Source: Rhea pennata
Lineage: Eukaryota > Chordata > Aves > Rheiformes > Rheidae
Length of the DNA: 64,000 nucleotides
NCBI RefSeq assembly: GCF_028389875.1
Contig: NC_084669.1
Coordinates: 29,996,567-30,060,566 of the forward strand
Direction: 5' to 3'
The notes beneath the pieces are model-generated. The model was given only the letters and a program-made list of their open reading frames with translations, was not told where the DNA came from and did no database searches. The position numbers and the translations under genes are program-made. Below, one piece after another: positions 8,767 through 34,500 of this stretch (positions are counted from its first letter, which is position 1; each line of letters opens with the position of its first letter).

Positions 8767-11700
8767 GTAAGGTATTTTTTTCTAATGTTTCAAATTGCTT
8801 CTATATTAGAGGGTTAAATCTTTTTCCAAAAGAATCACTTTGCAGATAGTATCTCTTGTGAATGAACATGAGCCTTTCTACTTGTTTATGGGGTTCCTGT
8901 GCTAAAGTGAAGGAAGAGTGTTAATTAATTAAAAAAGGGGATTTTAAGAGAAATTCAAGTGGTATTTTCTGTTCCACTCTCAATTCTTAGAAAAGTAATT
9001 TCACAGCCATAATTAGTAATAGAGAAACCTCACTAGATAAGATGGGTAGGAATGCTTGTCTGAGAACCCTGCCACCTCCATTTCCCATTTCTGAGTAAAA
9101 AACTGAAATTACATTTTACTTTTAACGAAATACTTATCTTCAGAGCCAGAGTGTTCTTGAGTTACTGTACTTCAGCATTAGTACTGTTTCTATTATATAG
9201 TGCAGTACAGTCAGTCAGTTGCAATGTGTTTAGAGCTCCACCTTAGGTTGGAGAAGTTTCTGAACTCTGGCAAACTACCTTTGGTCTCATCAGTAGTGTC
9301 AAAAGTCAACTGTTACTATATCTAAGAAACATTGTTTTTATTCTTAAGTGAGAGAAGATGTTTCATTTTTGCTGTCTGCACAGATAACTCTCAATTTCCT
9401 TCAAAGAGTTTCTTCAAAGTTAATCTTGTTAATAGACTGTTGCACTATGTGGAGACATTGCTCTTTTGTCACGAACTTGTCAAAGTACCTTTGGCAAATT
9501 CTATTGACTCCTTTCTTTGTCACATATTTTTTTAAAGCATGCTAAGCTTGCAGGTTATTTTAAAAATATTTGAGGAGTGTTGTCTAATTTTTGCCTTTGA
9601 GCTAGATGTTAGATGCCAACTGAGTACATTGCTAGTCATCCTGGATTTTATCACTCTTAACTGCTGATTCTAACAATATATGTATATTTCCATTTTTAGT
9701 TTTAAAACATAAGCTTGTAGCTTGAAGCTATCCCCCCACTGGTTAGGTGCCTGCATAATGATTTCAGAAGTTTCCTAGCTTAAAATGTGATTTCTGAATG
9801 TAATTATGAATTTGTTCTTGATTGCTTTTGCATCTTACTAAGAGTTTGATAGAGCAGCATACTATAATTTTTTGGAGTGTGTCAGCCTTAAGTTTTCATT
9901 TCACAGACCTTCATTAAACTTGTTCTCTACATCAAGCCTAGATGTGTGAAAATGGAGAATTTATGCTGTTCTCTCAAATGTAATGTCTGTAAACATAACT
10001 GTAAGTTGGAGTTCATCTCTGCTTAGTACAGAGGGCAAGAACATGTAGTTTTTTTTTCCCATAAAAAGGCAAAATAAAAACTGAAGGCCTTGTTTAGTAC
10101 TGTGGAAATAGAGTAGAAGAAAAGCAAGTGTTTAATCTTTTTTTTAGCAAAACCTAAATGCTTTGGATATTAATTCACAGCATTGGTTCTATGCTTTCAG
10201 AATATGTAAATACATAGAACAATTCCCTGCGTATTCACCAAGGCTCTTAAACTTTCATGTTAAACTGTTCTCCTTTAGCAGAATTGTTCCATGTCTTAAG
10301 AGGTATGGACAGATGAGCAAGAGACCAACTAGCAGTTTTAATTGTAGCAAATAAATTGATTTGCCTCAAGAATCATTTGTCATTAGTCTGTAAATACAAC
10401 GTACAAGAGATGTCTTCTTTTCTTTCACTGAACCTTTCTTATGTTACCTCTGAATCTAACAGTGTTATGCCACAAGAGTAAGAACAGGTGTGAGGCGTGG
10501 AAAAATTGGCCAAGAAATCAAAGCAGCAGCATTTGAACCATCTGCAGAAACTGCACTTAAAGGTAGAGTAGCTCTACTTTAATGAATATGCTTGAAATTT
10601 AAGCTGAGAAGGGGACACCTTTTCATTCAAACTGTTAAACAGACTGGAAAACAACTGTTTAAAGCTTGCTAGTGACCCCTCTCAAGTGTCTCAAGTCTGT
10701 TTGTCTGCTTGTCTTCTTGTAATGCTTAAAGTTGCAAATACCTCGTGGTACAGAGAAGTTTCCAGTTGTCTCTTTCTTTGAGCTTCTATTGAGAATTTTT
10801 TCTGTGGATTACAAAGGGATTGTTTAAATAGCAGTGTTCTGCAAAATAGACTTGCAAATCTTCTGCTATAGAACTGAATTGATAAATAGCATTTGTCTAG
10901 ATAAAATCTTGTCTCTAACACATTAGAAAAAATATTCTTAAAAGAATCTTATAGCTGAAAGTATTTGGTCTCAGCTGTTCTTACATTGATTATACCAACA
11001 TTGTATGACTGATGCTTTTAATTGTAGCCATAATCTGGTGCCTGTGACTATCAGGCAATGTGTCTAAAGAATCAGATAGTAGAAACTGATAGGGAATATG
11101 TTACATTGTTGCCTGTGAGTGTTAGAAATCACTTTTTGAACTGAGTTGGATCTAATTGTTACCAAAGAGCTCTTAACGGAGCAAACATTAAGGATAGGTC
11201 AATCAAAAAGACAAAGAGGTCTAGCTTTTCTACTGGAAGTCTTACCAGCTAGTGTGTGTTGGCATTTCTGTTATAGTAATGAAGGTCAGTGACTTTGGCT
11301 AGTCTCCTGTTTCTTGCTCTGTTTTACGAAGCTAGATTGTGTTGGCAAGCTATCTAGAGTGCTTCAAATCCAAATTTTTTTTAAGAATTGACAACACAAT
11401 AACTCTTGAATAACTACCGAAGTTAAGTGAAGCTTTAAGAAGCCCACCTTGGATCAGTTATAACTGTTATGACTAATATACAATTTTTTTTCTACTTTAT
11501 GAGAAAACGCATTCATGAGAGCATATTTTTTTTTTTCATACAGCTGACCGCCTGGGAAGATTAGTTGTTGCTGGAGGGGCTGCTGTTGGCCTGGGAGCTC
11601 TGTGTTACTATGGAATGGGCATGTCCAGTGAGATTGGAGCTATTGAAAAAGCTGTGTAAGAAAGATGGCTTATTCTTTTAAGACTGTATGAAATGATGCC

Positions 11701-14700: not shown

Positions 14701-15677
14701 GATTTTGGAGGAGAACAGGGACTGTGTGTCCTAATGCCAAATTGAGAAATGTAATGTTGTATTTTTACAGGCAATAGGTGCAACTTTTGCAGCTATGATT
14801 GGTGCTGGAATGTTGGTCAGGTCTATATCCTATGAAGATAGTCCAGCAGTTAAGCACCTTGCCTGGATGATGCATTCAGGTATGTGAGTTTTACTTCTCA
14901 TTATAGAGATCTGTTTCAGAGTGATGATGTTTACTTCAACAAAGCTTTGACTTCTAAACTAAATTTTAGATACTGGTTTAGGAGAGTTAGTTTTCAGAGA
15001 GACCAGTGAGAACTCCTGGATGTCAGTGAGCTTTAAGTGTCCACCACACAATTCTGATACTTCATAATCTTGTAAAAAGCCATGCTCAAGTTAAACTTGA
15101 GATACAAATATGCCCTGCTGGGTAGAACTAAATAGTTTCATAGTTGTTCTGGCTTGCTGGCCACTTTATGGGACCATAGCTTTTATAAGCATTGTTGTGT
15201 ACACTTACCATATCACCTCTTTTGTACAATGAAATTGTTCAAACACTGGAATTCTCAATTATAAGAATTGCTGCAGTGTGAAAGTCAAGTATTGCTTGGA
15301 TCAAGTTCTTCCACAAAAACATACTATTAACACTAATATTTAGCAATAGTTTTGAACTTACTGTAAAAATTTTTCTGCCCTACCTTCAAGTTGTTTGTGC
15401 AGTCTTTCCAGTATGCTGCTGCTTGACTTAATAACGCAAGAAGGAAGGTGTTGAAGCAACCTTATGCTAAGATGAACTAGCAGCTGTTCTTGCTGTTTCA
15501 TGAAGTGTCATTTTTGTGCTGCCCCTTCCACCCCACTCTCCCCCTGCAATCTTGTGAATGGATTGGTTTTATTCCTAGCAACTTTCCTAGAAAAGGAGAC
15601 TTGTTTCCTAAAGCCTCCTTTTAAGGAGAAAGGCTGGATTTTTCAGCAGGAAATTCTGTTTACTGTATGTATGAAAG

Positions 15678-15715
<38 letters not shown>

Positions 15716-18221
15716 GGTCTTAGGATGAATCTGGATAGAAGGATATTTGAAAACTGACTAGAAGCAGGGGATCTTAGTATTTAAACTTCAGCTTCTTAGA
15801 TGCATATGTGTATCAGGTGTATAAGACAGGACTACAGATCAGTTTCTTACTGAAGGTATTAGCTACTTCAGGTAATAGAGGCTTTCATTTTTTTGATCTA
15901 TTTTGCCAAAAACAATTTATGATTCAGGAACAATGAATGTAAGGCAGTGAAATCGTATTTGTCTCTCTGGAGCTAAAGATTTTTATCAGCTGAGAGGAAA
16001 TTTAGTCTGATATTAATGTAACAGATGGAGGTTTCATACAAGACATCAGTGAAAAGTCCAGCTTTTGCTTAACTATTTCTTGTAGCAGAACTTTGTCCTG
16101 CTTTTCAGTTTTGAGTGTTCTGTGGCTATTGTGTAGCTGATGAGTCTGTGCAAAGTATCTTTTCATTAACTGTGTTTTGAATGGATCGATATGCTGGCTG
16201 GTACTAAAGCTTTATTCCACAGACCACCTCCCTGGAGTATTCCCTAAAGCTAAATGAAAGTAGGTCACTTATTTTAAGATTGCTAGTCTATCATGTCTTC
16301 ATACTGTTTAGATAGATACACAGTCAAGTCTGGTGGTATTTTTGTCATGTAAGTGGTATAGCTTGAGCCCCACACTATCTGACTGAGAAAACATGGTTTT
16401 GGCAGGCGGAGTCTTCAACTGAACTGTTCCTAATGAGTTTTGTTTTGTTTCTCTTTGACTAGGTGTGATGGGTGCAGTGGTGGCTCCTCTGGCCTTCTTG
16501 GGTGGTCCTCTGCTGATCAGAGCTGCCTGGTATACAGCTGGAATTGTTGGAGGGCTCTCGACTGTGGCCATGTGTGCCCCGAGTGAAAAATTTCTGAATA
16601 TGGGAGGACCACTTGGAATAGGCTTAGGCTTTGTTCTTGCCTCTTCAATTGGTAAAATACTGTTTTGATACTGTCCCCAATTAAGGTTTGCCTTAAATAG
16701 CATTTGTAAGTCTAGCATAGCAGAAGATACTATGTTAAATCTTGTGTTGGAAGCAAACTGTGTAGTTGAAAATGTAGAACTACAATTCTGGCCAATATTA
16801 ATTTGACAAATGGCTGATAGTGGTAGCTTCTATTTTTGGCTGCTGTGGGTGGGTAACTAGGGAAGGTAGTAAGCGTGAGCTTAGCTTCAGATCCACTCAT
16901 TCTCCCTTCTGTGTTGCTGGGTGTTGTTGTATAAAAGTCACAGAGGCAGAACTACTTTCATATAAAGAAAAGTACATGATTCCCTAGAGTGCTTAAAAGT
17001 ACTACATCAACTCATATATGCCTTATCTGCAGCTGTTGTGTGCTGGTGTGTGAAAGCTGCTGGTGTGCAAATGCACTACAAACTGTTCAGAATTTTTGAG
17101 TACTCCTTGAAAAATATTTGCTGTAATAGCTGAGGTTTGACCTTATCCAGAGTAGCAGAGATGCTTACAGTAGCTTTTGTTTAATTCTTGTACATGTCCT
17201 TTTAGGATCCATGTTCTTGCCTCCTACATCTGCTTTTGGTGCTGGCTTGTATTCAGTAGCTGTTTATGGTGGATTGATACTCTTTGGCATGTTCCTGCTG
17301 TATGATACCCAGCACGTTATCAAGCGTGCAGAGACTATTCCGTACTATGGAGTAGCTAAATACGATCCAATCAATGCGTAAGTATTCTGTGTTAGCACAA
17401 AGCTGGTCTCGGTGTCTATATTTGCTTCAAATAGTATGGAAGTATGCTTTCAAAAAAAGAAACAAAAAACCTTATATTTTGTTAAACTGTGCAAAAATGT
17501 ATTGTTGCAAAATGTGACAAATTGTGAGGTTTTAAAATAAAATGTGGAAATAGCTGCCTGAAGTTAAAACAAAGCATCTGCCTGACACTAGAGAAACATG
17601 ATTAAATGTTACGTGCCTCCAACAATATTAACTTTTTTAGAACACGTTTTTCTACTCAGAAGGGAATTTTTATAGCTGCTCTCTGAAAATACCTGTCAAT
17701 ATCACCTCAAACAAGGCATGTTAACTCTTTTGTAGTAAGAGTAAGTATAAGTCTTATTAAGCAAGTAGCTTCCTTGCTATAGGTGTTGTCTTTCTCATCT
17801 TAGGTGAATTGTTTACTTCCTCTGATTTCTGATCATTAAAGTGCAATAATACTACTGATATTTAAAAATGCTTGGAGGTGAGCAGCTGGAAGTACAGCAT
17901 AAAAGCTGAGGGCTACTATTTGAATGGTATGATGTCTGTCAGGGCTTTAGCAAGTGTCTTTTATTGGTAAACTTTTGATTAAAACAAGGTATAGGTTTTG
18001 TATACCAAGTGCAGAGGACGCAGCACAGTTGAGTTTTGTCACAGGCCCTTAAGGGAGGCTTTTAACAATGAACTGTAATGGTGTGAGGCACCAAATACTA
18101 CTTCTAGATTAACCTTAATTTCCTGTTTCTTAGGTGCCTGCGTATCTACACAGATACACTGAACATCTTCATTCGGGTGGCCACCATGCTTGCCACTGGT
18201 GGAAGTGCCAGGAGAAAGTAA
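8638..18221 (+). CDS. GHITM: GHITM (TMBIM5/MICS1), mitochondrial inner-membrane protein
   Basis: Eight coding exons join in frame to 346 residues (human 345): 8638-8766, 10463-10562, 11544-11655, 13001-13142, 14771-14879, 16463-16651, 17206-17377, 18134-18221. The product belongs to the BAX-inhibitor-1/TMBIM family. Known roles are cristae organisation, cytochrome c retention and mitochondrial Ca2+/H+ exchange in the inner membrane. Residues 1 to about 60 are basic, Arg/Ser-rich and almost free of acidic residues, as expected of a mitochondrial presequence; the start MLAARLVCLRTL matches the human protein. A hydrophobic segment follows at about 83-103 and roughly seven more come after. The family C-terminal block YDPINA...DTLNIF is present at about 313-328, and the protein ends in basic ARRK. 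The start is the first ATG of exon 2 (CAACCATGC). No frame breaks or missing segments were seen. The long minus-strand ORF opposite exon 7 is a shadow. Confidence 0.97.
8767..10462 (+). other. GHITM: GHITM intron 2
   Basis: AT-rich intron. Apart from the second 74-bp repeat copy I see no gene, RNA or repeat family here. The same holds for the intron at 7160-8600 except for its own repeat copy. Confidence 0.6.
9141..9214 (+). repeat. 74-bp direct repeat, copy 2 (GHITM intron 2)
   Basis: Second copy of 8455-8528. Here GTACTG and CAGTAC pair around a CTAT/ATAG inner stem, so the right half can fold as a small hairpin. Confidence 0.95.
10463..10562 (+). CDS. GHITM: GHITM coding exon 2
   Basis: Acceptor CTAACAG|TGTTAT and donor AAAG|GTAGAG; ends in phase 1. 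It encodes the basic block with GVRRGKIGQEIK, aligned with human GIRRGRTGQELK. Confidence 0.95.
11544..11655 (+). CDS. GHITM: GHITM coding exon 3
   Basis: Acceptor CATACAG and donor CTGT|GTAAGA. It encodes the first membrane segment VVAGGAAVGLGALCYYG. Confidence 0.97.
13001..13142 (+). CDS. GHITM: GHITM coding exon 4
   Basis: Acceptor TTTTTCAG and donor CTG|GTAAGG. It encodes IWPQYVKDRI, nearly identical to human, and the second membrane segment. Confidence 0.97.
14771..14879 (+). CDS. GHITM: GHITM coding exon 5
   Basis: Acceptor TTTTTACAG and donor TCAG|GTATGT. It encodes AIGATFAAMIGAGMLVRSI and HLAWMMHS. Confidence 0.97.
15681..15714 (+). repeat. Poly-T tract (34 T)
   Basis: Uninterrupted T run in GHITM intron 6, with no retroposed sequence visible beside it. 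Confidence 0.95.
16463..16651 (+). CDS. GHITM: GHITM coding exon 6
   Basis: Acceptor TTTGACTAG and donor ATTG|GTAAAA. It encodes GVMGAVVAPL and AAWYTAGIVGGLSTVAMCAP, the most conserved part of the protein. Confidence 0.97.
17206..17377 (+). CDS. GHITM: GHITM coding exon 7
   Basis: Acceptor CCTTTTAG and donor ATGC|GTAAGT. It encodes MFLPPTSAFGAGLYSVAVYG, LLYDTQHVIKRAE and the start of the YDPIN block. Confidence 0.97.
18134..18221 (+). CDS. GHITM: GHITM last coding exon with stop
   Basis: Acceptor TTTCTTAG. It encodes LRIYTDTLNIFIRVATMLA, then a basic tail, with TAA at 18219-18221. Confidence 0.97.
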
Positions 18222-18289
18222 ATCAAGACTCCTCTCTGCAACTATCTGAAAGATCCAACTTCTAGGTTATCTGCCCAGTGCATATACTA

Positions 18290-18295
18290 AATAAA
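18290..18295 (+). terminator. GHITM: GHITM polyadenylation signal
   Basis: AATAAA lies 69 nt after the stop codon and is followed by a GT-rich stretch, giving a short 3' UTR. Further AATAAA copies downstream (for example 19388-19393) could serve longer isoforms. Confidence 0.8.
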
Positions 18296-18725
18296 AATTC
18301 GTGGGTACAAGCAGTCTTGCTGCAGGAGTCAGAAGTTTAAAGCATCTTAGCAAATTATTCTTGGTTCAGTGCAATGTGATTCAGACTTGATAGTTTTTCC
18401 TCAAACTCTTTTCAGTTTTGTGTTTAAAATAGTGAGAACTGCTCCTAAGTGTACATTATTTTGGGAAAGTAATTTATTTTTAATATATGGAGTAAAATAA
18501 TTAGTCAGCTTTTTAGTGGACTTGACAGCAGTTAGTTTCCTTTTTACTGTAACTGCTTAGTAAAAGGAAATAATCTGTAAAGTGTTATCCCTTATGCAAA
18601 TAGCGACAAAAGCTACTTCAGGAAATGCTGTTGAGATAAAACATGTTTTCAGTTAAGATTGTGTAAAATGATCTTCTAGTGACACATGAAGAACTGAACA
18701 AACTGGATACAGCACTATCCAGTTG

Positions 18726-21700
18726 ATGCCTTCTGGGCAGAAACTTCAGAAACGCTTAACTGTTAGAAATCCATTGGCCTGCATGGATGAGGTGACCAAA
18801 AATAGAAAGGGGACAGGAAGAGGAAACTATGCAGCATCTGTTCTGTATGAAAACTTCAGTCTTTCTGAAGCACATATGGAAACTACTTGTAGTTTTGGCA
18901 ACTAGACATGAATTTTCATGTTAACTGGGTATAATAGTAGCTAAGTTCTTCTGATACTAGAATTCTCAAACACTGAATAGTGCTAGAGGGCTCTTTTCCA
19001 GTGATTAGATTTCAATATTGCAGGTGAAGCACGGTCTTACGGAAGAACTCCCAGCGCTCAGCTTCTTTCACAAGCTCATACAGTTGGCACTGAGAGGGGC
19101 AATTGAGGATGTCCTGTTGTAAACCCAAGTATCATAAATTTACCATACTATTATAGTCTTTCCTTCCTCTGTTTTAACTCTTCTTCAGATTGGTATATTT
19201 AGCTGAGTCTAAAATGTTCCCTATCAGTGATGTTGACTTGACGTTAACAAATACCTGCCAAACTCTGTTGCTGTATGTTGGAATAAGAGGTGAGTTCTTG
19301 GGCACAAGGAAACTTGGAGCAAATGTCAACAACTCAAACTTTCATTTTCTGATAAATATGCTATGCTCATGTATTGACTTGTGGAACAATAAAAATCTAG
19401 CCTCACGAGTTTACTGCTTACTTCTGTGTTAATGGAAGTCTTTCATTACCCTGCACAAATAATCTGGTTTTAGAGTGCTAATACATATGTCTCTAAAGAA
19501 TCCACGAAGATGACTTCCAGTTTCAGTGGCTATTTGGGGTGTTTCCCAGACAAAGATGCTGATCAATGCTTGCTTGAAGTGGCCCAGTAAGTGTGACTTG
19601 TTGGGTACTGACTGCAGCCAGTGCTGCTTTTGTCTGTAGTATGCCGCAGTATTTCTACAGCCTTGGATCCTAAGGGAGGAGCAGTAGATTGTGAAGGACC
19701 TTGTGACAACTCTTTTTTTGTCCGTAACACCATCTAACTTCTGATGCTTTTACAGCTGAAAGAATCTCTGTAGTACTTTGGAGGAAGACGTTTCTGGATC
19801 ATGTCAAGTGTAAGTAGACTGAAGGGTTTATCTCTTCAAGCAATTTCTTAATGCTTAATCAAATTACAAATACTGTTGCTGTAACTGAACACAGCAGTGT
19901 GCTTGTCCTGAAATTCTGTCTTGCAGTGAAATTCTCATATCTGTGCAGATACTTAAAGTCTGGGGAAAGTACTTTTTTCTGAATTGAGGACAAAGCTTTC
20001 AGAGATTGACTGTGTGAACCAAGAGGAGGTTTCTGGATTGTTTGAAACGGTGAGGTGTAGAACTGGTTTAGCGAGGGAAAACAGTTTGGAGCAACAAGAG
20101 GTGTAGTACCTTTTAAGAGACCAATAAGTCAAATAGTGTCTGAAAAAGCACTAGCACTAATGTTATTTTGAAAAGGAGTGTGTGTGTAGAAGAACAGACT
20201 TAAGAATTATTTCTTTATACATGCAGTCCTAAGTGCAGAATTAAGATTTATTTTGTCAGTTAAGACAGCTCTGACGTAAGGAGTGATCAAAATCTAAAAT
20301 AGAGTGCTTTGAGATGAGCACAAGAACAGATGCCTGTTTTTTCCTAAGGGTGAAAGATGAGGGAGAGCTTCTGTCTGAGAGCTTGCTGTTGTGCTTTTCT
20401 ACTTGGTGCTGCTCTATTGGAGTGTAAACTTTGAAAAAAGTGAAATTTTCTAAAGTTATATCAATTAGACCTAACTAGGTCACTGTTGTTTTAGGAATTT
20501 TATTTTGCATTTCTTGCTAAAGAATGGAGAGTTACAACTGTAAAACTGAATTTTAACTTGGGAGACTTTCAAGACTGTATTAAGATGCATGAAGTATGTC
20601 TTACTGAGCAACTTGAGTAGAAAATGCAGCTGAGGAAGAACGCCACTGTTTGTTTCTATCTTTCAGCCTTCCTTCCAACCACTGAGTAGTTTCAGAAAGA
20701 AATGAGATGTTTTAGATCTTACAACATCTGATGTGTAAAAAATGGCCCTGCAACTAGACTGTCCAATTTTAGTGCTGTTACGAGTGGCCCTACAAATTGG
20801 GAAGGGGAAAAATGTTGGTCAACAGTAGGTAAAAATTCAGAAATCAAAGCTAAGGTGTGAATGTGTATACTTTCTCTGAAGATGCTACTTTTTTTGCCCT
20901 TGGGGTGCTGTTCACTTTTTTGACAGTTGGCTATAAAGTCACAGAAACTTCTTTTTGCCCTTTGATTCAGTCTCTTGTCTCAGATCAAAGAGGGTTATGC
21001 ATAATTGTATTCCCTTATTGACTGCTAGTAGAGACCTATATTAGATTTGCAGGGAACTCTTAAATAATTGCTTTAAGCTTAAAGAGAACGAGAGAAATTG
21101 GTTACAAAACCAAGCAAGACAGAATGTTTTCATGGTTTCCGCTGTTTCAAGTAAATAACAAACTATGTATTTAAAGAAAACGGTTTTCATGTTAGATGTT
21201 AAGAAGCTCAGTAGTGAGGAAAAAGTTTAAGCAGTTAATTTAAATTTTTAAAAGTTTAAGCTTAACTGTCAAATACAGGAGAAAGTTATGTGTTTTTATA
21301 TAAGTATAGCAAAAAAGTTTCATTAGCCAGAAGCAGTTTATTAAAATCACAGTAAAATAGGGCAGAATTTGGGAACGCTGCTTGGGAGAGGGGCGGGGGA
21401 GGAACAGGCCTTCAAAACTCACTACATGTTACCAGGAAATACAGTTGGTTTCCTATTGCGAGAAGTCTTTAAGTCAAGTTTGGACCTCATAGTAAAATGT
21501 GAGGTCCAGGTACAGTGTTTAAGAAGCAGCTTTTTTTTTTTTTTTTTTTTTTTTTTTCCCCAGGAGTTAAACAGGAAGTTGTACTGAATGGTTGAGTTAC
21601 GGCCTTTCTTAAGCTTGAAATGTAAAATTCCTTACAGAAACTGCAAAGCAGACGCACTTGAGGGTCTGTTTCGTCTCATAGCTGAAGCAACATCTGTCAG

Positions 21701-21733
21701 AACCACTTGTTGGCTTGGACTGGAGTCGCCTTC
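18726..21733 (+). CDS. Candidate 5' exons of an unrecognised gene
   Basis: Segments: 18726-18791 (possible start), 19024-19118, 19189-19289, 19499-19586, 19763-19807, 19989-20102, 20349-20423, 21638-21733. With splice phases 0, 2, 1, 2, 2, 2, 2, 2 they form one frame that leads into the exons at 24116-30716. The best segments are 19189-19289 (very strong pyrimidine tract, donor AGAG|GTGAGT) and 21638-21733 (acceptor CCTTACAG, donor TTC|GTGAGT). Encoded pieces such as LALRGAIEDVLLLVYLAES and DALEGLFRLIAEATS are helical in character. Weak points: the 18726 start has a poor Kozak context; the 19763 acceptor lies 8 nt beyond a better one that breaks frame; and the 19807 (GTGTAA) and 20102 (GTAGTA) donors are poor. 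The splice sites were chosen to keep frame. No family recognised. The segment could instead be longer GHITM 3' UTR or non-coding RNA. Confidence 0.35.
21531..21557 (+). repeat. Poly-T tract (27 T)
   Basis: Preceded at about 21481-21507 by a perfect 9-bp inverted repeat, TGGACCTCA opposite TGAGGTCCA. Confidence 0.9.
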
Positions 21734-24115
21734 GTGAGTTACGAAGGAAGAACAGGGAGAGGAAGAAAAGTGGGTTGTTTTTTCTTTGTTTCTGTTCTCT
21801 CCTCTAAAGGCAGTGAAAGTGGGAATTTGTGCTCTATGGTGACAGTGAATTCGATCACAGTAGTAGTTCATACCAATGTGAAGGTGGACAGGGAAGTATG
21901 CTGTGATTCCAGCTTGATTAGTCCAAGGTGGTAGGACCTGTCAGGAGCAATATGTGGTTTTGGGTTTGTTTTGCCTATTGTGTTACTTCTGATGTACAGT
22001 GACACAGAGTTTATGGCTACCCATTATAACATTCCCTCTTAGTTCCACTGCCCGTGATGGCACTTGAACAGCCTGGTGCTGAATTCAAATAGGGCAGATA
22101 ATCTGCCCTCACTTTGGGGGTGGCAGTTGAAGGATGTCGGGATTCATCCCTCCTCAGGTTCTTAACTGCAAGTGAAGGCTTATGTGGCCAGACTGCTTCC
22201 AAAACACTGGCTTGAGTTAATCCTGTCCACAATGCCTGCAGAAAGTTCTTCTGTAGCCTCTTGGTTTTCAAAGGGACTGCCATGTAATTAGTGTATTTTG
22301 AAAAGAGGGAAAAAAAAGAAAAAGAGTGTAGGGGTGCTGCCTACCTAATTGAGGCTTTGTGCAGTGTATCCTGCATGTGCCCTTGGGCACAGGAATGTGT
22401 GTGTGGGGGTGTTGCATGGTTGGGCAGCAGGGTGGAGGTGTGTGTTGGTGGGGGGCAGTACTTCCCTTGGTAGAGGGCATGCAAGTTGGACAGGGGCTTG
22501 CTGAAAGTAGAGTAGTTCCAGCAGAAACAGGTTGGGGAGAGTGAGGACCTGCTTCATTGCAAGGTTCCATTTGTGGTTTGGGGAATTGAAGAGTAATTAA
22601 AAATCTGTTTTAAATTCAATCTAGGATAAGATGGGAGAAGCAGAAAGGCAGAAAACATTGAGCAAGCTGGAAATGGAAGACTAGTAGCAATGAACTAGTG
22701 TCATCTCCAGAGTCACTAAGAAGGAAAAGTGCAACAAGGTCAAAGAATGTGTAAGTTTAAAAGTGCGTCAGGAGAGGGATTGGGGACAAGGGATTCAATT
22801 AAAACACAAATTACTGTAAAGTAAGCAAATCTGACTTCAGAGTCTATTACCTAGAAGTCTGAGATACAATAGCCTTTTTGTGGAAGCCTTTGTTTTATGA
22901 AAGTAGCAGCAAATGTTTTATTACACCTTTGCAGTTGAAAAGAGGTTGTTGTTGATTTCCGTGATGAGCATGGGGCTAGGAATTAAGTACAAAAGGAAGA
23001 TTTTCAGTCATCCAGGGATCTAAGGGATGCATCCTTAGATTCATGTTGCTAACACTTTGTTCAAAAGTCAAAGCATGTCTGTCATGTAAAAAGTAGTTTG
23101 AGTTCTTATGATTAAGATATGTTCAAGGCTTCTTTTCTTGCAATTGCATTGGTAAGAGACTGAATGAACTCAAAAATGTAATTTTTGTGTAGTCATTTCT
23201 GGAGACAATATGTCAAAATATTACAGGTTTCATCAATCTTGTATGGTAGAATAGTAGTATAATTCTAATGGTAGAAGCTCATGCCATTATAAGGAAAACC
23301 TGTGCTTTACATGTGAGAGCGTTCTCTAAGCAGGTTGAAACAGCTGCTTGCAGCATGAGGAAAACAAAACAGTTGGCGCAAAAGATCTTGTTAAATTTAG
23401 TGATAAATAAAAACTCTAACTTTGGAGTTGTGGGAAAGTAGGAAGCATTAAGAAATTCCAGGGTACAAAGTTCATTTAATTCAGCTTAGACAAATTATGA
23501 ATCATTGTAGTTCTATAGGAGTATATGCTGAACTTCCTCTTGAAAGGGTACGAATTGTAGAAACTGCAGACTGTGTAGTTGTATTTATTCTCTATTAGAA
23601 AGAGGTAATAATGACAGTGTCTGGGATATAGTAACGTGTAAAAACTGGAGTAAAGAGCAAAACCCAAGTAACTTCTCTTTAAGTTTATGGTAAGTTGAGA
23701 ATCACTTCAGACTGTCCTGGAGCAGGGTGTAAAACCTTTTTCTCTTTTTCCACAGAGCTTTTACAGCAAATCAATAGTAACTTCCTGAGTCTGTGCCTTG
23801 TAATTAATCCTTCGGTATAACTGGCATCTGACATGCCTTTGAGACTCGTGTACTTTGTTCACTGTTGCAAGTTGTGCATATTTATCCTTCTCATAACGAG
23901 TCATTCTTTTGGATGGTTTTGCACTATTAGGTGAGGTTTGTAGCTGCATTTATTCTGCTTGTTTATAACTTTCCTCCTACAGGCGAGGTGCTTAAGCTGT
24001 TTTAACAACTTTGTCCCCACTTCCCCCATGTTTTTGTGTGTAATTTCTATTCTCTCTCATCTTTCAAGGCGGGATGAGGCCAATTTATTATCATGGTAGC
24101 TGTTGGCCTCTGAAG
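21734..24115 (+). other. Intron of the candidate gene with alternative exon-like segments
   Basis: At 21809 a very strong acceptor (TTCTCTCCTCTAAAG) opens a frame reading NLCSMVTVNSITVVVHTNV to about 21886. At 23756 another (CTCTTTTTCCACAG) opens LLQQINSNFLSLCLVINPS. Neither fits the main chain in phase. The minus strand of 23761-23949 is also open with a charged, coding-like composition. These may be alternative exons, exons of an antisense gene, or chance. Confidence 0.3.
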
Positions 24116-27100
24116 AAAGTATACCAGAATGAGCCAAGGCCTCAGTCCAGGATTACTGGTGTTGGATGTGGCGCTACATGTGAGAGAAATTATGTTTTCT
24201 TATTGCACTGATAGTTCTCTGGCCCACTTGCTCAAGCAAGATGCAAGTTAATAAGCTGATTTTGACAACTGCTGGGCCAGAGCTTCACACTTCTGACCAG
24301 ATGACCAGAAGAGCTACAAAACCTGTTTATGGCAGAAGTTCTGTTCCTGCTGCAAGTCAGTTCTGCAGGGTGAGGGGAAAATGTAGGCACCCAAAAGGGG
24401 AAGGATCATCCTTATTTATATTAACTTTTGCTTTAAAAGATTCTAGTCTTTCACTCTCAGCTGCTTACGAAAATACTTTCTTTCCCTCCTTCCTTCAGAA
24501 ACATGGAAGGAGAATACAAGACACTTCATCAGGTATTTTGTATAAAATAACTAGTCTGTTTACCTAGTGCTTAATTCCAGAAAACTTAATATGAGAAAAT
24601 GAAGTGGTATGATGACAGATGTCTTGGCAGATATCATGCTTTTCCTGAATAGATAAGCCATTTAATTCAGCTGGCAGGCCTCCAAAGGAGAAAATACTGT
24701 GCAGCTGTCAGCCTCTAGGGCTTCTGGGAAGATTTTGTGATTAATCTACATATTGATCTCTCTCTTAAAAATGTAAATAAACTCTGCCTGTGCTGATCGG
24801 ACATGAGCTGGTGGCAGTGCCTTGAGGCAGGGATGACGGGGGGAGTTACGTCCTTTTGAACAAGCATAAATGCTGTTGCTCAGCGGCTGTGGCTCTGTTC
24901 ATGGTTCTTCTGTAGACTGTGGGCACGCTGATCGTTCCACACAACCAAAATGAATTTGAACTAAGACCTTTAGAAGCAAAGGCTAAGGTTGTCTACGCTT
25001 CTGGAACGGTATGAATTTTAACTCCTCCATCTCCCCCAGGCTCCTACAGAGAAACAGTTGTCCAAGAATGTTTCCTCGTTTGATTTAGTGGTAACTACTT
25101 GTGTTAGCTCGCAGGAGCTAACAGTGCCCAGTGAGGTGGATCGTGGCATTTTTTCAATGCAGTGAACACAGTCTGTTCCTCGAAGCATGTATGGTCATCC
25201 TAGTTGTATTTATATGGCTGCACAGGAACAGAAGATGATGCACAGTTCATGAAAAAGGATTTTACTTTTAGCCAGAAATTTGGTGGGCTAGCAAAACTGC
25301 AGCAGAGCTTTTATTGGAAGCTGAAGTTTTGTCTGAATCAATCTCACTAGGAGACTTAAGTCATGGAATAGTGGGCTTTTTGCATCTCTGTTCAGCTTAT
25401 ATTTCTCATTCCCTTGGGGCACCAATAGAATCAGCCAAAATATCTGGAAGTTAGTTTCATTAAATTATCTTTGGGGGGAGAAAAACTGTTAAATTATTTT
25501 TACAAGTTATTCAAAAATCCTGAAGGAAGCAACGTTCTAAGAAATGCAGCTTTTGGTTTTGCAGTTATTCTTAAAACTTTTCTTGTGATCTTTTTCTTTC
25601 TTAGAAAAAGATGGTGATGGGAAAGGAGGTGTTGTATTACCAGGAGGAAAAACAGAACATCTTCATCTCTGGACCACAGGATGGTAGATTGGTGTCATCC
25701 TGTGTCTGGCCTAGGTAGGATGATGTAGTGATTTTTAGTTTTGCACTTAGTACAGTAAGACTTGCAATTCAGCAGCCATTACCTTAATACAAATTATCAT
25801 GCCTCTGTTGTCTCACCCTTGCAGTGTTGATGAGTTAGCATCTAGGAAGGAATCTAGTACTTCTGCAAATAGGTAGGTCACCTTAAAATTTACAGGCAGT
25901 AAACCTAGTGTGTTTCATGCAGTTGTATTCAATCTTAAGACTTTTCCAGATGTGTTTAGCTGTTTGTTGCAGATAAGTCAGACACTCCAGTTTTTCTGCT
26001 CCTGGCATATTGTCTGTTGGCTAACTCTGTTTCCAGGAAGATAATATTGTCATGCTAATTCTTTAAATACAACTCTTGTAATTATAAATTTTCAATAACT
26101 TACTGATGTCAGGACCACTGTCAGGAAGTGGCAATATGTAATACATTGACAGATTAGTATTTCATACAGAAAAAACTGTCTTTCAGTTGAAGTTTAGCTC
26201 CTGTGTGCAAGTTACTAAAAAAGACCGGCTTTACAGTAGGCCTAAAGAACTGCTCAAAAACTTAACACAGACACATGCAACAACTAGATTGTTTTTACTA
26301 GTAAAGTGCCACTAATGTTGTGGTACTTTAGATTTGATTTACTAGTAAAGTACCACTAATGTTGTTTCATGTTTACATAAAGAAAAACATCTAAGGTAGT
26401 AACCCATGCCTTGGTAAGCATTAATAATACTGTTTCTGGGCTTAAAGTATTAAAATGGAGGGGTGAGGAGAATTGATGAAGATGTCTTTTTGAACATGTT
26501 CTTGTTCGTATTTGGCTCCAAAAGCAGTGTGGCAAAGGATCTAAACATAATCAGTTGGAAACATGGTGGGTGAGAGTATATGAATCAGACACTTGCTCTC
26601 CTGGAGTGTGTCAGCTCTACATTATAATTCTGTTCAGAGAATGTTCTTTGCATAGTAAAATGAGTGGGCAAATGTCGGGTTACTGACTGATCTTGGGCTT
26701 TGCACTGGCAGGTTATTTACCGTCATAGCAATTAGTGTTCCAGTGCCAGACTACAGGTTTGAACAGCCATCCTCACTGAGAGTTTCCCCAGAATGATTTA
26801 CTCAGTTGCCTGTGTTGTAAGACCCTTTCTCCCTGTTGTGATGTCTGAAGGTCACTGAGACAGTTGGGTGTTGAAATAAAAGCCCGGTTCTTACTGAAAT
26901 ACTGGGTGGAAGGGGTATTTGAATGCATCTTTTTCAGTTGCAGAGGAAGATCCTTTCAAAATTAAAAGGCGAAGCTATGAAAACTATTTTTAAATTGCTT
27001 GCTGCAGCTGAAGATCATTTATAAACAACCTGCCTTATCAAACTCTTCACGTATTTAATATAGTTTTGCTTTTTAATGTAGGCAGAAATAGGAAGGAATA

Positions 27101-30100
27101 GTCTGTCTTTTGGAGAGCAATTCAAGTTTTATAAAGGAAGCAGACATGCTAAGTGTTATTGTTTTATAGATGTTTTATAGATTTGAAGGCCAGAGCACAT
27201 TACTTTGTGGTTTACAACAGTGTTGGATTTAGGGCAAAGACCAAGTTGGATGAAAGGTCCAGCGTTTATTACATTGCACCTCACCTTACAGAAATACTCC
27301 AATTTCATGCTCTCATCTGCTCTGCAGGCTGAAAATGTATCTGTGAGGCAGGTCTGGCCTTCTTGCTTATACTAGCCAATTGTAAAGACTACTTATGAAA
27401 AAAGCGTGTATGATTGCAAAAAGTGAAAATCAATAGTATTTTCCAGCTGCTTATTTAGATCATGACTTAAAGTAGAATTACTTGAAACATCATGGGAATC
27501 CTTAGAAGTATCAACTGTAGTCAGTACCTAAGATCAGATTTTAATTTAGTCACAGGGTACACATGTGCTCTGTTTGTTCTCTGGCATACCCTGCAAAATT
27601 AGGCATGCCTGTAAAGAAGAGAAAGGAAAATGAGCAGGGTGAGAAATAAGCTGAACGTGTGTTTTAAAGAACAAAAGTTACAGAACTAGCTAGAGCATGT
27701 TTGGCAAATACTATGAATGTCTCTTGAAAGAAAGCAACATAATCAAGGGTATAAGGCAGAGAATAGAAACTCTTGACAGGATTTAAGAATAAAAAAAAAA
27801 AAGCCTCAGCTACTGCCCATTAAGAAGGAATGGCAGGGATAAACCTTGGAAGGAAGGAAGTTGAGCCTTTAGCATAAAGACAAGGGTTTACATAATAGAC
27901 CTATGGAGACTCTTGGCAATGGAGAGAAGAAGGGGCAGAGCAAGTGAATCCGCGAATAACTCAACCCCTTGCTGCTCTAGCAGGAGATGAGTGCCGGAAA
28001 ATGGGGAGACTTCTACCCATAAAGAAAGGCGTTAACTGAGCAGAACGGTCTCACAAAAATCATAAATGAAAAATTTTAGTTTTTTCATCTGGCATATTAA
28101 AAATATAAACATTGAAAAGCAGAATAAGCATATAGTGAGCTCAGAAAAAGAATTTGACTGTTTCTCATTGGAGAGGCTACATTTTTATTTCCAATAATAT
28201 TTATTTTGTGGGTTACTGTTAAACCATCCTGTTTGCGTGGTTATTACCTATATATGGTTATGCCAAGTAACAAAATTAACATTCTGCCAGGAAATCAGGA
28301 CCTTTTTTTTGCCTTTTTCTTTTGGCAAACCAAAGCAATACAGCTCTTGAAAAATAACTTTGTCTTGTTCAGTGCACAATTTCTATTCCTAACAGATAAA
28401 GCAGACTTAATTGAACTACAAGTATGTATAGTGATACATCATAAAACACATGGGAAAATCACCACAGTTACTCCCTTTCTAGCTTTCAGACTCCATGTAC
28501 TATGCCTGCTGCCTCATGTTTCCCAGACATTTTGGGAGGATCTTAGTTTCTTTAAAAAAAAAAAAAATTGTGGCACACACAACAGATTTGGCCTGAATCC
28601 ACTCAGAAAGATCCTCACTGACTTTGGCAAGACCGGAATTTAAAATGAGATGTTGTGATTTTTTTAGGTTTTTACAGTGATAACAATTAGATATAGTAAT
28701 TAAAGACTTCCAGATTTAAGTGAAGTTTGATTCAAATTCACAGGGCAGTAGACTGAACTTGCGGAATTAGTAGGGTTTTTTGTTGTTGTTTTACTTTAGC
28801 TCTTAGATGTATTGAAAATGTCTTACTGCTAACAGCTAGAGTCCCTTTGCAGTGTTAGTTATCTCCCTGTATTGGGCAGTGTCCTTCTATATATGTATGA
28901 GCTTGCCTAGAATTTCCCCAGTGTGATGGAGATAAAATACTGTAGTTTGAGGTGCTTACCTGGTTGAGCACTACAGTTACTCAAGCAGCCTGATTGAATA
29001 TTGCAGAGAAACAACTCTTCCACCTATCTTTTTTCCTGCCTTTTTGACATGTTGGATGTCCTGCTGATCTTAGCAAGTAGATTGACTAACCCATGCATGT
29101 TCTACCTACGTGCTCTGTTTAGGTTGAATTTTTTTTGTTTTCTTGGGAAAAGATCATGTCTACTTGTTCTATCTGTGCAAAGATTTAGCTTAGCTGGTAA
29201 AAATTTCTATATGCTGGAGATTGTGAAGGAAAAAATGAAACATGACGGAAAACTGCCTTGTTGCTGTCATCTTTTAATTGCTATCTCAACAATTGAGAGC
29301 TGAGTGCTGAGCTATACCGTCAGCACAGCTTGACTACCTGTGCTAACCTCCTTGTGTTCCTGGTAGCTTTGCTGACAGTGAATACCACCTAGCCTGCTTT
29401 TCTCTTTAGTTGTTAAAGCTTGACTTAATACCTGGAAGAATTAAAATAGTTTGGCAGATCACATATTTAAAAATCTCATTTTCTTTTCCTCCCCTGTCTG
29501 CAGCTTTGCTGTCATGTGGAACTGGAGGAAGAGGTAACTACCATTGTCTTGGTAAGAGTATCATTTAGGCTAGAAAGCTGAGAGTTTCAGCCTTAATTTT
29601 GTGTGGTATAGTACCTTAGACAGAAGAGTTGTTTGCCACCTTGTTAAAATTAGGTGAGTACTTTTCTGGACAAGAATGGACAGAAAAGGCACTCAAGGGT
29701 TTTCTCGAGTTGAGGTCGAAGGACTGTGTTACAGCTTCCACAAGTGCATGTTTGAAATGCTTTAGTCACAAATAAGCTGTCTGCTAAAATGGAAGCTTAC
29801 TGATGGAACTGAAAAGATTATTTCAGGAAAGCAATTCGGAAGAGATTCAGCTGTTATCAGCTTAGATTTTATCCTATATTCTTCCCAGTTCAGAGTACAT
29901 CTAAAGCAATTTAATGTTTCTTTTGGAGCACTGAAGTCCTAAATTTGATTTAGTCAATAAAATGGATTGTATAGATGTTTTGAAGTCAAAAATTCTTCCT
30001 ATAGCAATTCTGGTTTAAATGTAACAATTTATTTGTAAAATACTGAAACAAAATCAAATTTGGTTATAGTAATGACTGCTCTCCCATTAGAGGGGAGTAT

Positions 30101-30716
30101 AAAACTTCTCTACAAATTTTACTGATTTTTAAAAGTGCATGATTAAGGCTTATCTGTATGTTTGAGCTCTTGATAAGAAGCCCAAGAACAAAAGCAACAC
30201 TAAAGCTGGCTTGTTCCTTTTTCTCTTTTCTTCTACTTTGTCACTGACTGAACTGTAAAAGTACTTTCCGAGAGGCTTAGCAGCGTTATGAACCGGAAAC
30301 CATACTGTGTTCTGAGATGTGCTAATGGTAAAGCAAGACTGTTCATAAAGTGCTTTGAAGATAATGCTACCTGTAGCCACATGTTTCATCTTGTAGGCTT
30401 GGTAATGTCAGCTTTGGCAAAAAAGACTGTTAAGCATTAGCAAATCTCACAATATTTGGTGATCACAAGGTAGTAATGTAGAAATAACAAGGCTGGTTTT
30501 AGCTAAAACTGGTAGATAAAAGGGTGATTTGATCTGGAAGGTTTTCAGTCCAGCACAAGAAGGAAAACAAATCTAGAACCTTAAATGTGAACTTCTGAAT
30601 TTGCATGTGATGGGAGTGTACATGTATGCTATGTGTCAGAGTGAAGCCTCCTTTCTCATTGCAGTTTGAAGCATGAGCCGCTTGCAGATACTACTTGTAC
30701 CTCAGAAGCTGCCTGA
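24116..30716 (+). CDS. Unrecognised multi-exon gene, 3' part (six exons)
   Basis: Exons 24116-24179, 24916-25008, 25605-25714, 25825-25872, 29504-29533 and 30665-30716 have entry/exit phases 2/0, 0/0, 0/2, 2/2, 2/2 and 2/stop. All junctions agree and no internal stop occurs. Acceptors before 25605, 25825, 29504 and 30665 follow long pyrimidine tracts ending in TTAG or GCAG. Donors are GTGAGA, GTATGA, GTAGGA, GTAGGT and GTAACT. If translation starts at the ATG at 24129 (AGAATGA context) the protein has 127 residues; with the upstream exons it would have about 358. Peptide pieces include GLLVLDVALH, TVGTLIVPHNQNEF, KVVYASGT, EVLYYQEEKQNIFISGPQ and FAVMWNWRK. There is no signal peptide, clear membrane span or domain I can name. 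The first acceptor (CTCTGAAG) is the weakest site. A recent pseudogene is possible, since frame alone does not prove translation. Confidence 0.55.
24916..25008 (+). CDS. Unrecognised gene, exon TVGTL...ASGT
   Basis: A 93-nt open segment with acceptor TTCTTCTGTAG and donor AACG|GTATGA. The frame is open for 31 codons, symmetric phase 0/0. Confidence 0.6.
25605..25714 (+). CDS. Unrecognised gene, exon KKMVM...CVWP
   Basis: The acceptor follows TCTTTTTCTTTCTTAG, and the donor is CCTAG|GTAGGA. 110 nt, phase 0/2. An earlier donor at 25683 (GATG|GTAGAT) would change the exit phase and break the join to the next exon. Confidence 0.6.
25825..25872 (+). CDS. Unrecognised gene, exon VDELASRKESS
   Basis: 48 nt between TCTCACCCTTGCAG and AATAG|GTAGGT, phase 2/2. 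It adds a hydrophilic Ser-rich segment. Confidence 0.6.
25873..29503 (+). other. Largest intron of the candidate gene
   Basis: It holds a 27-bp duplicated word at 26295-26321 and 26339-26365. I see no other gene or repeat family. The ORF at 28206-28643 is pyrimidine-rich and unconvincing. Confidence 0.45.
26295..26365 (+). repeat. Short tandem duplication (27-bp word, 44-bp period)
   Basis: TTACTAGTAAAGTGCCAC and TTACTAGTAAAGTACCAC each continue with TAATGTTGT, giving one mismatch in 27. The spacer contains GTGGTACTTTA, the complement of TAAAGTACCAC in the unit, so the second copy can fold back on the spacer. Confidence 0.85.
29504..29533 (+). CDS. Unrecognised gene, 30-nt micro-exon
   Basis: Bounded by the strong tract TCCTCCCCTGTCTGCAG and by GAAGAG|GTAACT, phase 2/2. 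It encodes FAVMWNWRK plus split codons. Confidence 0.55.
30665..30716 (+). CDS. Unrecognised gene, last coding exon
   Basis: Acceptor TTTCTCATTGCAG. It encodes LKHEPLADTTCTSEAA, then TGA at 30714-30716. Confidence 0.55.
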
Positions 30717-30966
30717 CCCTCACAGCTTATTCTCTCAATTGGGAACCAGATCATCTCAAAGTGAGCTGATGCTGCCAAACCTAAATTTCTGCCTGACGTA
30801 GGAGACTGTCAGCTCTGCAACTTGTCCCTACTTCAAAGTTTTTTTTCAATACGTTCTCTCTGAACCTTGGTACTGTGTTGAATTTGATGGACTTCTTTAT
30901 CTTGACTGTTAAAAGGAGTCTCTTAAGACTTAATTATGCAGATACAATAGATACTGAGAAGTTAAT

Positions 30967-30972
30967 AATAAA
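30967..30972 (+). terminator. Polyadenylation signal of the unrecognised gene
   Basis: AATAAA lies 251 nt after the stop of the candidate last exon, giving a 3' UTR of normal size. This supports a real transcript end between this gene and GPR15LG. Confidence 0.5.
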
Positions 30973-31403
30973 CTCAGATATGCAGCTTAGCCAGGTGTCT
31001 TGTTAATTATGTTAATGTCACATTGAAAATTGCTGTGATTTAAGCACTACAGGTTTGTTTTGCCTTTTCTAGTTACCTGTCCACACAGCTTCATTTTTAA
31101 GTGCTTTCTGCCTTTGCAAGCACACAAAAGAGCACATGAGGTCAGCTAAGAAAGCTGCTGTAGAACCACAGGACCCAGCTGCAAGGTGAGACTATGCCTC
31201 AGAGCATCCTCTTTCTTCGGTCCTCAAAGCCAGGCTCTCCATATTAACTGGAAGGACTCTCTTTAATGTAAGTTAATTGCTGCTTGATTTGCAAGTCAGC
31301 CACTTCCCGTAGTAGGGAGGGCTGTTTCTTCCCATCCCTTGAAGGGCAATACAAAGGCCAAATCTCCACCCATCCCGAACACAACATTCCTTCTGATCTA
31401 CTT

Positions 31404-31491: not shown

Positions 31492-31561
31492 ATGAAGCTG
31501 CTGGCACTCTGTAGCTTCTTGTTTGTCTTACTTCTGTGCTTCAACACCTTCACCGTAGAAG
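31492..31561 (+). CDS. GPR15LG: GPR15LG exon 1, signal peptide
   Basis: ATG at 31492 in GGATGA context; donor GAAG|GTAGAG; phase 1. Confidence 0.92.
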
Positions 31562-34500
31562 GTAGAGTACATTCTTCTAATGCAACTGCCTTGTTTCTTT
31601 TTCTGTTCTTTCCTCTTGTGATATAAAAAAATACTTATTCTCTAATTGTATGTTGATTTAATTCTAGAAAACAAAACTTGACAATTGAGAAGGAAGAGCA
31701 AGAATTTAGAGCTAGCAAGTGTGGCTGTGTATCAGTACTTCGTCTGGCTTTCACAATAGTATTTCCTCTCACTTGAAGAGGCCTCTTTTACTACCTGTTG
31801 CATGTAGTTCAGCATGATTAATTTTCCTGAAATTAATCCTTCCTCTGAAAAGAATTCTTGTTATTCTTCAACAAATATCCATCTGACGATATAAGAATAT
31901 TTCTTACTAATCAGGAAGTACATTAATGGATATAGCTGCTATCCTCATGGGACAAGAGAGTATGAAGCCAAGTAAGATACCTAGAACTGGAATAAATGAG
32001 AAATCCTTTACTGAAGGAATTCTTTACTGTGGGCATAGCTCTTCTGACCCTCAGTCAGAAAAACTGTTATGTGGGGTTGTTTTTTTCCCCTCCTGATGGT
32101 ACATGTTTTAATTACTATATTACTTTGTGCTGCTCAGCATTTTGCAGTATTTCAAAGCACAGAGCTTCACAAAGTAGTTTTAAATTTTAAAAGTTGGATC
32201 TTGTCTTTCTGCTGCAAGGCATTTGGAGATGTCATTGTGGATTTGCAAGGAGGCTACAGGAGTACAGGGAGTGTGGCAGGATTTTTAATCTGAAAGGTGT
32301 TTTAACTTCTGTAGCTATCTGTTCAACTCCTTAATGTTTGGGGTTGTAAATCTCATGATTGTTCCACACTATTTAGCTTTTACATGGATGTAGAGAATGA
32401 ATGAGATAAGGAAAGACAAATGTCCAAAGGTCAGTGGCAGCAGATCTGCTGTGCTTCATATTTTCTAGGAACCTCATAGGAATCACTGTGTGTGTGTGTG
32501 ACGAGAAACGAGTAGAAGCTGTCTTTAAGACTGGTCACATAAGCAGCCCTGTCTTCTTGTCTTTCTGCCTGTTAGAGAATGAACACTAGGGAATTAAAAG
32601 TGTATATGTACCTGAAGCATTTCTGCCCCTGCTTTGCATTTTTTTATTTATTCAGGCTTCCCAGTCCTCTTTGGGGGAACTTGAAGAAACAGTGCAAAGG
32701 GAGTTGCAGAAGGATCTCTAGAGGAGTCTTCAGGAGCATAGCAGGAAAGATGCGAGAAAACCACACCTGCTTAAAAACCCAAATGAAAACATGCAGGTTC
32801 CTGCAATAATGTTACCTTCTATTAGTGTGTGTCCTAGAGGTTTAGCCCTTCCCTATGTCAGAAAGGGGAGAGGAAATGTGAAAAGGACACTGTTTATCCA
32901 TAAACATACCGACTGAAAGGACAGTTTCAGTAATATGTGTGAGGTTGCCCAAAACCTCTTAAGCACATCACTATGCTTGAGTATAGCTGGAGCAGAAATG
33001 AGGGAACAGTCTGGGAGAAACTATAGCCACCTCTTACTGTTCCTTGAGGAAAAATACCCCTTTTCCAGTTGGGGTTAGCTAAGACAAATCAACCCTTTGC
33101 TTTAACACTCAGCCAGGCGCCCTCACCCACACCTACTTATGCCTGCATTTGAAGGCATTGCCCAGTGTCTGTCCTTCCATTCTTGTCCGTGTAGTTTGTT
33201 CTTGCTGCAGTACAGTGTTTCTCGCTCTAGCTTCGGTAGAAGCACCTGGGTGTGCGTTTCGTCATTTGAAACCTGTTAGGTTGGAATGAAGCAACGCTGG
33301 TGAGAAACTCCAACCTCCTTGGATGCTAGAGCAGCTGCCATGGCTAGCTGCAGCTGTTGAGCCATACCACTGAGATTGCTGGAAACACTGAGCATATGTG
33401 ATTCACAGTTTGCAGTCCTTTCTGCTCCATGGTCACTTCAGAACTGACCTTCCTTTTCTAATGTAGCTAGCACACTGTATCCAGCATTCGGTGTGCAATT
33501 AGTCTCACTTATTTAGATCTAGTACATAGGGAATAATAATCTATTCTACACCCTTGTGCATGTGACTACACACACTTTTAATTTTTATGCTTTCATTAGG
33601 TAACCATAAAAACAGTGCAAAGTCTATTTATTGGGTTAAGATAGTTGAAATTCATTGTGTTGTCTGCCAGTGTGTGACATTTCGATGGGTGAGAATCTCC
33701 ATGATGCATCTAATGTACAGTATCCGCTAGCAATGATGGGAAAGAACAAATTTATACCTGTTTTGTGCTAGTGATGAGGTTGTATGCACTGACGAAAAAT
33801 CAATCATGATGACCCTTTGTTTTGCAGATTGCCGTTCAAGGCTTTCAAATGCAAAGCAATAGTCAAAATGTTTGAGGAGTCTAGCCTGTTTGGTGAATGC
33901 ACACAGATAACTGTGTCTTCTGCTTCTGTTGGTAATATATTATTTTTCACCCTTAGGTCGGAAGGTTAAAAAAGTCTGCTGCTCAAAACTACCCAAACTC
34001 AACAAAAAAGCACAGAAAGGTAATATCCACATTAATTCATCATCTATAATGATAACAATTTGTTACTGTAGTTTTCATTTGTAAACTTCACAGGATTTTC
34101 CACATTGGTGAGAATTACCTTCATTGTATTACAAAAATAACTTTTTTCCTGAATCATCTTACGTATCAGAGTTTCGATTGGGAAGAAATGAGAGTAGGGA
34201 AACCATTTAATGCTCACAGTGTAAAACAATAGTGAGAAGATAATCTGATGAAAACGCATTGTTCATATCAGTTCCTGCTTTGTAGAAGGTCTTGCTTTTG
34301 TTTTGAGGGCAGGAAGAATAATACCATACTGTGATTCCTTACTGAAGAAGAATAGAGAACCTGCAAAAGTGAAGAGCTTTATGGTGGCTTTCCTTGGTCC
34401 ATTATGTCACCATCTATTTGTGGCTGCATCCATCTCCGTATTCTATGAGAGAACAACCAAAGTATGATTCTGTAAATTCAAAAGAAAAATCAAGTTTTGT

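Follow-up and report, generated by a model that had tools for sequence, protein, structure and literature searches.

In human, we know of no gene between GHITM and GPR15LG, and a literature search on the GHITM/GPR15L neighbourhood returned, among the matches listed, no title about one. Here we consider the same interval in a bird, Rhea pennata, within a 64,000-nucleotide stretch (positions 29996567-30060566 of contig C7 of a 1.27-Gb genome; hereafter the window) in which the gene order on the + strand is GHITM, the gap that holds the candidate, GPR15L and CDHR1. A preliminary description of this DNA had placed in the gap a possible gene of up to 14 exons with a joined frame of 1077 nt (358 codons). 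The two neighbours are those that it named, since the predicted GHITM protein matches Pfam Bax1-I (E 1.9e-39) and the joined GPR15L peptide matches Pfam GPR15L (E 8.9e-09). By contrast, the 14-exon, 358-codon gene is unsupported: for its 5' half very many alternative chains can be drawn, and that half starts in the probable 3' untranslated region (UTR) of GHITM. The six 3' segments are the only part that deserves a real test, and we put at about even the chance that the candidate chain is a chance arrangement in intergenic DNA, with the 14-exon gene most likely absent.

The preliminary description came without an exon list, and the exons were therefore rebuilt from the stop, the phases and the distance to the poly(A) signal. 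As it had claimed, six splice-flanked open segments join in one frame (367 nt, with five of five junction phases in agreement and a TGA at the end), and an AATAAA starts at 30967. The features of the candidate, with splice-site ranks taken among the 933 AG and 777 GT dinucleotides of 19301-31100, are as follows.

19510-19586, + strand: optional first coding exon (MTSSFSGYLGCFPDKDADQCLLEVA..), joining exon A in phase; donor rank 16 of 777
24499-24532, + strand: candidate exon A (NMEGEYKTLHQ); acceptor rank 3 of 933, preceded by 18 pyrimidines in 18 nt
24916-25008, + strand: candidate exon B (TVGTLIVPHNQNEFELRPLEAKAKVVYASGT), open in one forward frame; acceptor rank 32, donor rank 38
25040-25135, + strand: alternative exon B', in the same phase slot as B; acceptor rank 6 of 933
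25605-25714, + strand: candidate exon C (KKMVMGKEVLYYQEEKQNIFISGPQDGRLVSSCVWP), stronger than any other exon of the candidate set; segment score 16.8
25825-25872, + strand: candidate exon D (SVDELASRKESSTSAN), separated from C by a 110-nt intron; donor rank 9 of 777
29504-29533, + strand: candidate exon E, 30 nt; acceptor rank 4 of 933, donor rank 10 of 777
30665-30716, + strand: candidate terminal exon F, with TGA at 30714-30716; acceptor rank 23 of 933
30967-30972, + strand: AATAAA, 251 nt after the stop

Acceptors of exons A to F rank 3, 32, 13, 11, 4 and 23, with 18, 13, 15, 14, 16 and 14 pyrimidines in the 18 nt before the AG, and the donors of A to E rank 40, 38, 21, 9 and 10; exons A, B', C, D and E together hold five of the 13 top acceptors in 11.8 kb. 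The introns from A to F measure 383, 596, 110, 3631 and 1131 nt. GHITM exons score 11.4-21.1, a range that includes exon C, though five segments that lie in no known gene outscore exon C, reaching up to 34.0. The AATAAA is weak evidence, as the window holds 105 of them over both strands. Exon E can be skipped without loss of frame. Exons B and B' are mutually exclusive, and B' has the better acceptor; the gene finder described below favoured B' in its first run, in the six-exon test and in a local-background run at a higher intron penalty, and picked B in one setting of a run with window-wide background. An ATG within exon A (24503-24505) offers a second possible start (120 amino acids). By inspection, no signal peptide or membrane segment was seen in the candidate protein. 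Just 5' of exon A lies another splice-flanked open segment (24069-24179, GMRPIYYHGSCWPLKKVYQNEPRPQSRITGVGCGAT), which by inspection runs into a TAA stop when spliced to A and so stands outside the chain.

The eight 5' exons of the original proposal could not be confirmed. Subtracting the 367 nt of the six 3' exons from the 1077-nt frame leaves 710 nt to be covered from the proposed ATG at 18726 to exon A. No in-frame eight-exon chain of this length exists with good sites, one exists with moderate sites and 93,720 exist with poor sites, and because so many poor-site chains have the required length, the eight-exon chain is uninformative. The start at 18726 is itself probably inside the GHITM 3' UTR, because AATAAA occurs at both 18290 and 19388. 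The figures quoted for the candidate, 1077 nt and 358 codons, are exactly those of the GHITM coding sequence in the window; the number was possibly carried over from GHITM, or the match is a coincidence. A simpler 5' end than the eight-exon half is the single exon 19510-19586, which reaches exon A across a 4912-nt intron to give a seven-exon frame of 444 nt (147 amino acids plus the stop); the gene finder selected this exon in its first run and left it out with local background. A nine-exon, 195-amino-acid variant, with 19527-19586, 19756-19807 and 21638-21733 before A, was rejected: its frame is kept, yet its splice sites are poor (acceptors -2.7, 3.0 and -1.6; donors 3.6, -3.3 and -0.7); it had no Pfam match and one match in the PDB (E 0.81).

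Comparison with chance was made using a small custom exon-chaining gene finder, whose splice weights and chicken codon table were set by hand, which limits all of its scores. As a positive control, it recovered GHITM whole over 7601-18300 with looser thresholds; over 6001-19300 it chose a chain in a CpG island in place of GHITM. The assertion that the 3' exons are unlikely by chance held mostly against Markov-simulated DNA, failed against block-shuffled DNA and was borderline against real DNA of the same genome. The score of 19301-31100 was equalled in 1/300 and 0/300 order-4 simulations and in 0/200, twice, at order 2. With window-wide background and order 3, this region beat all 100 simulations at two intron penalties, and at a third it scored 24.7 against a simulated maximum of 26.6. 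With the same background its reverse strand scored 10.8, 24.6 and 45.0 against 15.8, 24.7 and 46.4 for the + strand, while with local background the values were 5.3 and 17.5 against 20.5 and 38.8. When the real sequence of the region was permuted in blocks, the target was matched in 140 and 119 of 300 shuffles (300-nt blocks) and in 159 and 140 of 300 (600-nt blocks), as against 1/100, twice, for GHITM. Markov DNA was thus rejected as a sole null, being too easy, since real DNA reaches the score of the target even after block shuffling. In the shorter interval 24.3-31.1 kb, shuffles matched the target in 78 and 88 of 300 cases with 600-nt blocks and in 37 and 40 of 300 with 300-nt blocks. Comparably sized pieces of GHITM gave 9 to 17 of 300 if its first exon was included, and 48 and 70 of 300 if it was not; the power of the block-shuffle test is therefore limited.

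A sliding test with overlapping 11.8-kb windows, in which known exons were masked, gave scores of 17.5-24.1 for + strand windows starting at 15001-24001. Other windows of GC content below 0.425 and outside the CpG island near 6-7 kb scored -7.2 to 14.3; windows that hold the island scored 29 to 89, and the scores of GC-richer windows from 43501 onwards rose to as much as 38.8 on the + strand. Segments scoring at least 11 within 24.3-31.1 kb numbered seven on the + strand versus two on the - strand; elsewhere there were two to three per strand in 31.1-37 and 37-44.3 kb, and seven and five in the GC-richer 44.3-52 kb. The wider genome was represented by twenty 10-kb pieces at preset round coordinates, scored on both strands, which may include genes. 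Among those with GC content below 0.43, 11 of 32 strand-segments reached a generic chain score of 20 (target 15-23) and, at a lower intron penalty, 7 of 32 reached 38 (target 33-43).

For the six exons themselves, scoring was restricted to six-exon chains that keep phase and reach a stop within 6.3 kb. The proposed six gave 76.0 and the best chain in the region, which uses B', gave 78.7. In the first run, one of 32 AT-rich control strand-segments reached at least 76.0 (L016+, 78.6), and a GC-richer one (L003+) gave 84.7. Later runs used slightly wider exon limits, and their thresholds were chosen after the candidate had been seen, the strictest pair (3, 1.5) lying just below its weakest site; at this setting GHITM itself yields no six-exon chain. 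Block shuffles reached at least 76 in 29 to 102 of 300 cases, depending on block size and threshold. In the gap between GPR15L and CDHR1 (37-47 kb), six-exon chains scored 73.9 (+ strand) and 74.4 (- strand) versus 76.0 for the proposed six; at the strictest thresholds the - strand still gave 74 and the + strand 38. These chains had no Pfam match, and this control stretch could itself hide something. Codon usage gave a z of 4.0 for the six exons and 9.6 for GHITM; because the score-selected chains at 37-47 kb reach 3.6 and 3.1, the selected null comes close to the candidate.

Searches for relatives agreed with the preliminary description in finding no recognisable family, that is, no significant Pfam match. 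Among the candidate pieces and models, the only Pfam family to appear at all was the Bd3614-like deaminase (PF14439), below threshold (14.2 bits, E 0.044), and the model with B' had no match. The deaminase was rejected, its score being far below the curated cut-off of 38.5. Residues 20-97 of the 147-amino-acid model are nearly collinear with the profile; zinc binding in the deaminase superfamily uses the motifs H/C-x-E and PC-x-x-C, and by inspection the 147-amino-acid sequence has neither. Other open frames of the region scored about as well (ATPgrasp_TupA 0.017, YAF2_RYBP 0.086, DUF5546 0.089), and no literature on Bd3614 deaminases in vertebrates was found. In the PDB, the candidate models had no significant relative (best E 0.81), and matches of the 147-amino-acid model to cytochrome f (E 1.5 and 2) were set aside as chance. 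None of 22 pattern matches among viral contigs (IMG/VR) was confirmed as a relative. One of 17 pattern matches among GTDB genome contigs passed tblastn (L001, a Rhodanobacter metagenome-assembled genome) with 32% identity over residues 98-142 and an E of 1e-4 that takes only the candidate stretches into account; two + strand open reading frames of at least 40 amino acids are listed there, both in frames other than the matched one, and we regard this match as noise. Exon C occurs once in the genome that carries it, as do the stretches 24000-26000 and 29300-31100. The candidate protein returned four pieces of itself and one match on contig C6 (27%, E 0.21, two stops), which was discounted as chance level by its E-value, and no paralogue or parent was found elsewhere in that genome. 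Rfam at gathering scores gave no match in the window. The missing relatives say little on conservation among birds, because the collections searched are not meant to hold other bird genomes.

How, then, is the chain best explained? Under the reading of a chance arrangement, the stretch from the end of GHITM to the GPR15L promoter would be ordinary intergenic DNA, in which splice-like sites and short open segments would chain into one frame fortuitously; the proposed 5' segments lie partly within the probable GHITM 3' UTR. Such an in-frame chain is possible because a reader may pick freely from hundreds of AG and GT sites and from three frames. Several results weigh against this reading. When 0-2 bases were added inside each of the seven segments (including B and B'), a chain of at least 76 was restored in 5/300 cases only, at either threshold. 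The codon usage of the six exons (0.173 bits per codon) was equalled by one in 2,000 randomly drawn sets of length-matched open segments from the region, and that of the B' version (0.154) by 2 of 2,000. At thresholds (3, 1.5), 78.7 was reached by two of 40 controls (none of the 32 AT-rich ones), both in loci with Pfam genes; at (2, 1) it was reached by four of 40 (one of 32 AT-rich), namely L003+, L009+, L009- and L016+. The chains of L003+, L009- and L016+ contain Pfam matches to STIMATE, OTU and a Na/Pi-cotransporter, respectively (1.1e-08, 1.9e-07 and 3.7e-14), each spanning only part of its chain, and L009+ is the opposite strand of the OTU locus. Thus, in this small control sample, chains with good sites at the level of the target accompanied real genes; with lax thresholds, 11 and 16 of 40 controls reached 78.7 (5 and 9 of 32 AT-rich). 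Finally, the block-shuffled + strand of 24.3-31.1 kb kept a mean score of 15.9, versus 0.1 for its own reverse strand and -2.0 and 2.5 for 37.5-44.3 kb; because the mean stays this high, the + strand is rich in exon-like segments in any order.

The frame-scrambling result and the controls with good sites, together with the phase agreement, the high-ranking splice sites, the coding-like codon usage, the scores of the sliding windows and the excess of high-scoring + strand segments, speak for a real short gene, so far undescribed, with six or seven coding exons, which would follow GHITM head to tail. Its transcription would begin just past the poly(A) site of GHITM or near 24 kb, the transcript would be spliced and then polyadenylated after 30967, and the putative product would be a protein of about 120-148 amino acids, with no recognised domain, fast-evolving and possibly tissue-restricted. 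We consider such a gene unlikely, given that block permutation was not beaten, that near-equal chains occur at 37-47 kb with similar codon z after selection, that the reverse strand was nearly equal at two of three settings with window-wide (not local) background, that neither the first exon nor exon B is uniquely determined, and that no library searched held a relative and no human gene is known at the site. Before this evidence, we would give an unnamed gene in any one intergenic gap a probability of a few per cent, and the six-exon evidence raises it perhaps tenfold to twentyfold. In its fuller form, as an undescribed single-copy bird gene of six or seven exons that encodes a soluble protein of about 120-148 amino acids, belongs to no known family and is absent or unrecognised in mammals, the proposal remains doubtful. 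If real, the candidate would function like any small spliced gene, with the same direction of transcription as GHITM, and no domain in its short, presumably soluble protein suggests a more exact function. The segments may also belong to a non-coding RNA or to a decayed gene, with splice sites that are or were used and a frame that is untranslated or no longer selected. Splicing without coding could account for the share of the best acceptors found in the candidate exons, and the lack of a family in Pfam or, at gathering scores, in Rfam is consistent with it. We regard this as improbable: codon usage and phase agreement are not expected of a non-coding RNA, and a decayed gene should show stops, of which the joined frame has none (although the exons were chosen for openness), and no parent or paralogue was found in the genome. 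We retain the chance arrangement as the preferred reading.

The neighbouring genes, all on the + strand, were placed as follows.

8638-18221, + strand: GHITM coding exons (nine exons, 1077 nt, 358 amino acids), upstream neighbour and positive control, recovered whole by the gene finder
18222-19410, + strand: probable GHITM 3' UTR, with AATAAA at 18290 and 19388
31492-36679, + strand: GPR15L (GPR15LG, C10orf99), downstream neighbour, with exons 31492-31561, 33957-34019 and 36588-36679 assigned by eye
Start near 52.6 kb, + strand: CDHR1, probable exon 52656-52746

The human GHITM 3' UTR is, we presume, likewise longer than 1 kb. A TATA-like sequence lies about 90 nt upstream of the GPR15L ATG. 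The name CDHR1 is assumed from the gene order; a peptide joined from exons 61375-61520 and 62360-62410 matches Pfam Cadherin (E 3e-06) with 28.0 bits, slightly below the family cut-off of 28.8. About 0.7 kb 3' of the probable CDHR1 exon, a GC-rich stretch (53481-54300) holds several open frames on both strands, and the observed/expected CpG ratio over 52001-54000 is 0.51. Upstream of GHITM, a 330-amino-acid + strand open frame (2721-3882), for which a Pfam scan gave no match, overlaps a - strand frame (3493-3882) containing LFSIFINDLDDG, which we take to be typical of the reverse transcriptase of CR1-type long interspersed nuclear elements; the region is likely an old CR1 fragment. The stretch 48040-48200 contains GGAAGGGACCTCTGGAGATCATCTAGTCCAACC, which presumably resembles the conserved end of bird CR1 elements.

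Were the short gene real, it would be a vertebrate gene missing from a human-centred catalogue, and because its gene neighbourhood is known, its losses or rapid change could be traced through birds and reptiles. Should the chain have arisen by chance, it shows how easily phase-consistent exon chains can be read from intergenic DNA, and the case points to block shuffling, mid-exon frame scrambling and segments of the same genome as useful controls.

Compared with the two genes that flank it, the candidate shares its strand with GHITM (TMBIM5), a member of the Bax1-I family that lies directly upstream and whose 3' UTR probably covers the first of the proposed segments. The two have no family in common, GHITM being confirmed by Pfam and the candidate being without a family. 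GPR15L differs from the candidate in having a signal-peptide-like N-terminus (by inspection) and a Pfam family, neither of which the candidate has, and resembles it in being a small gene of short exons on the same strand.

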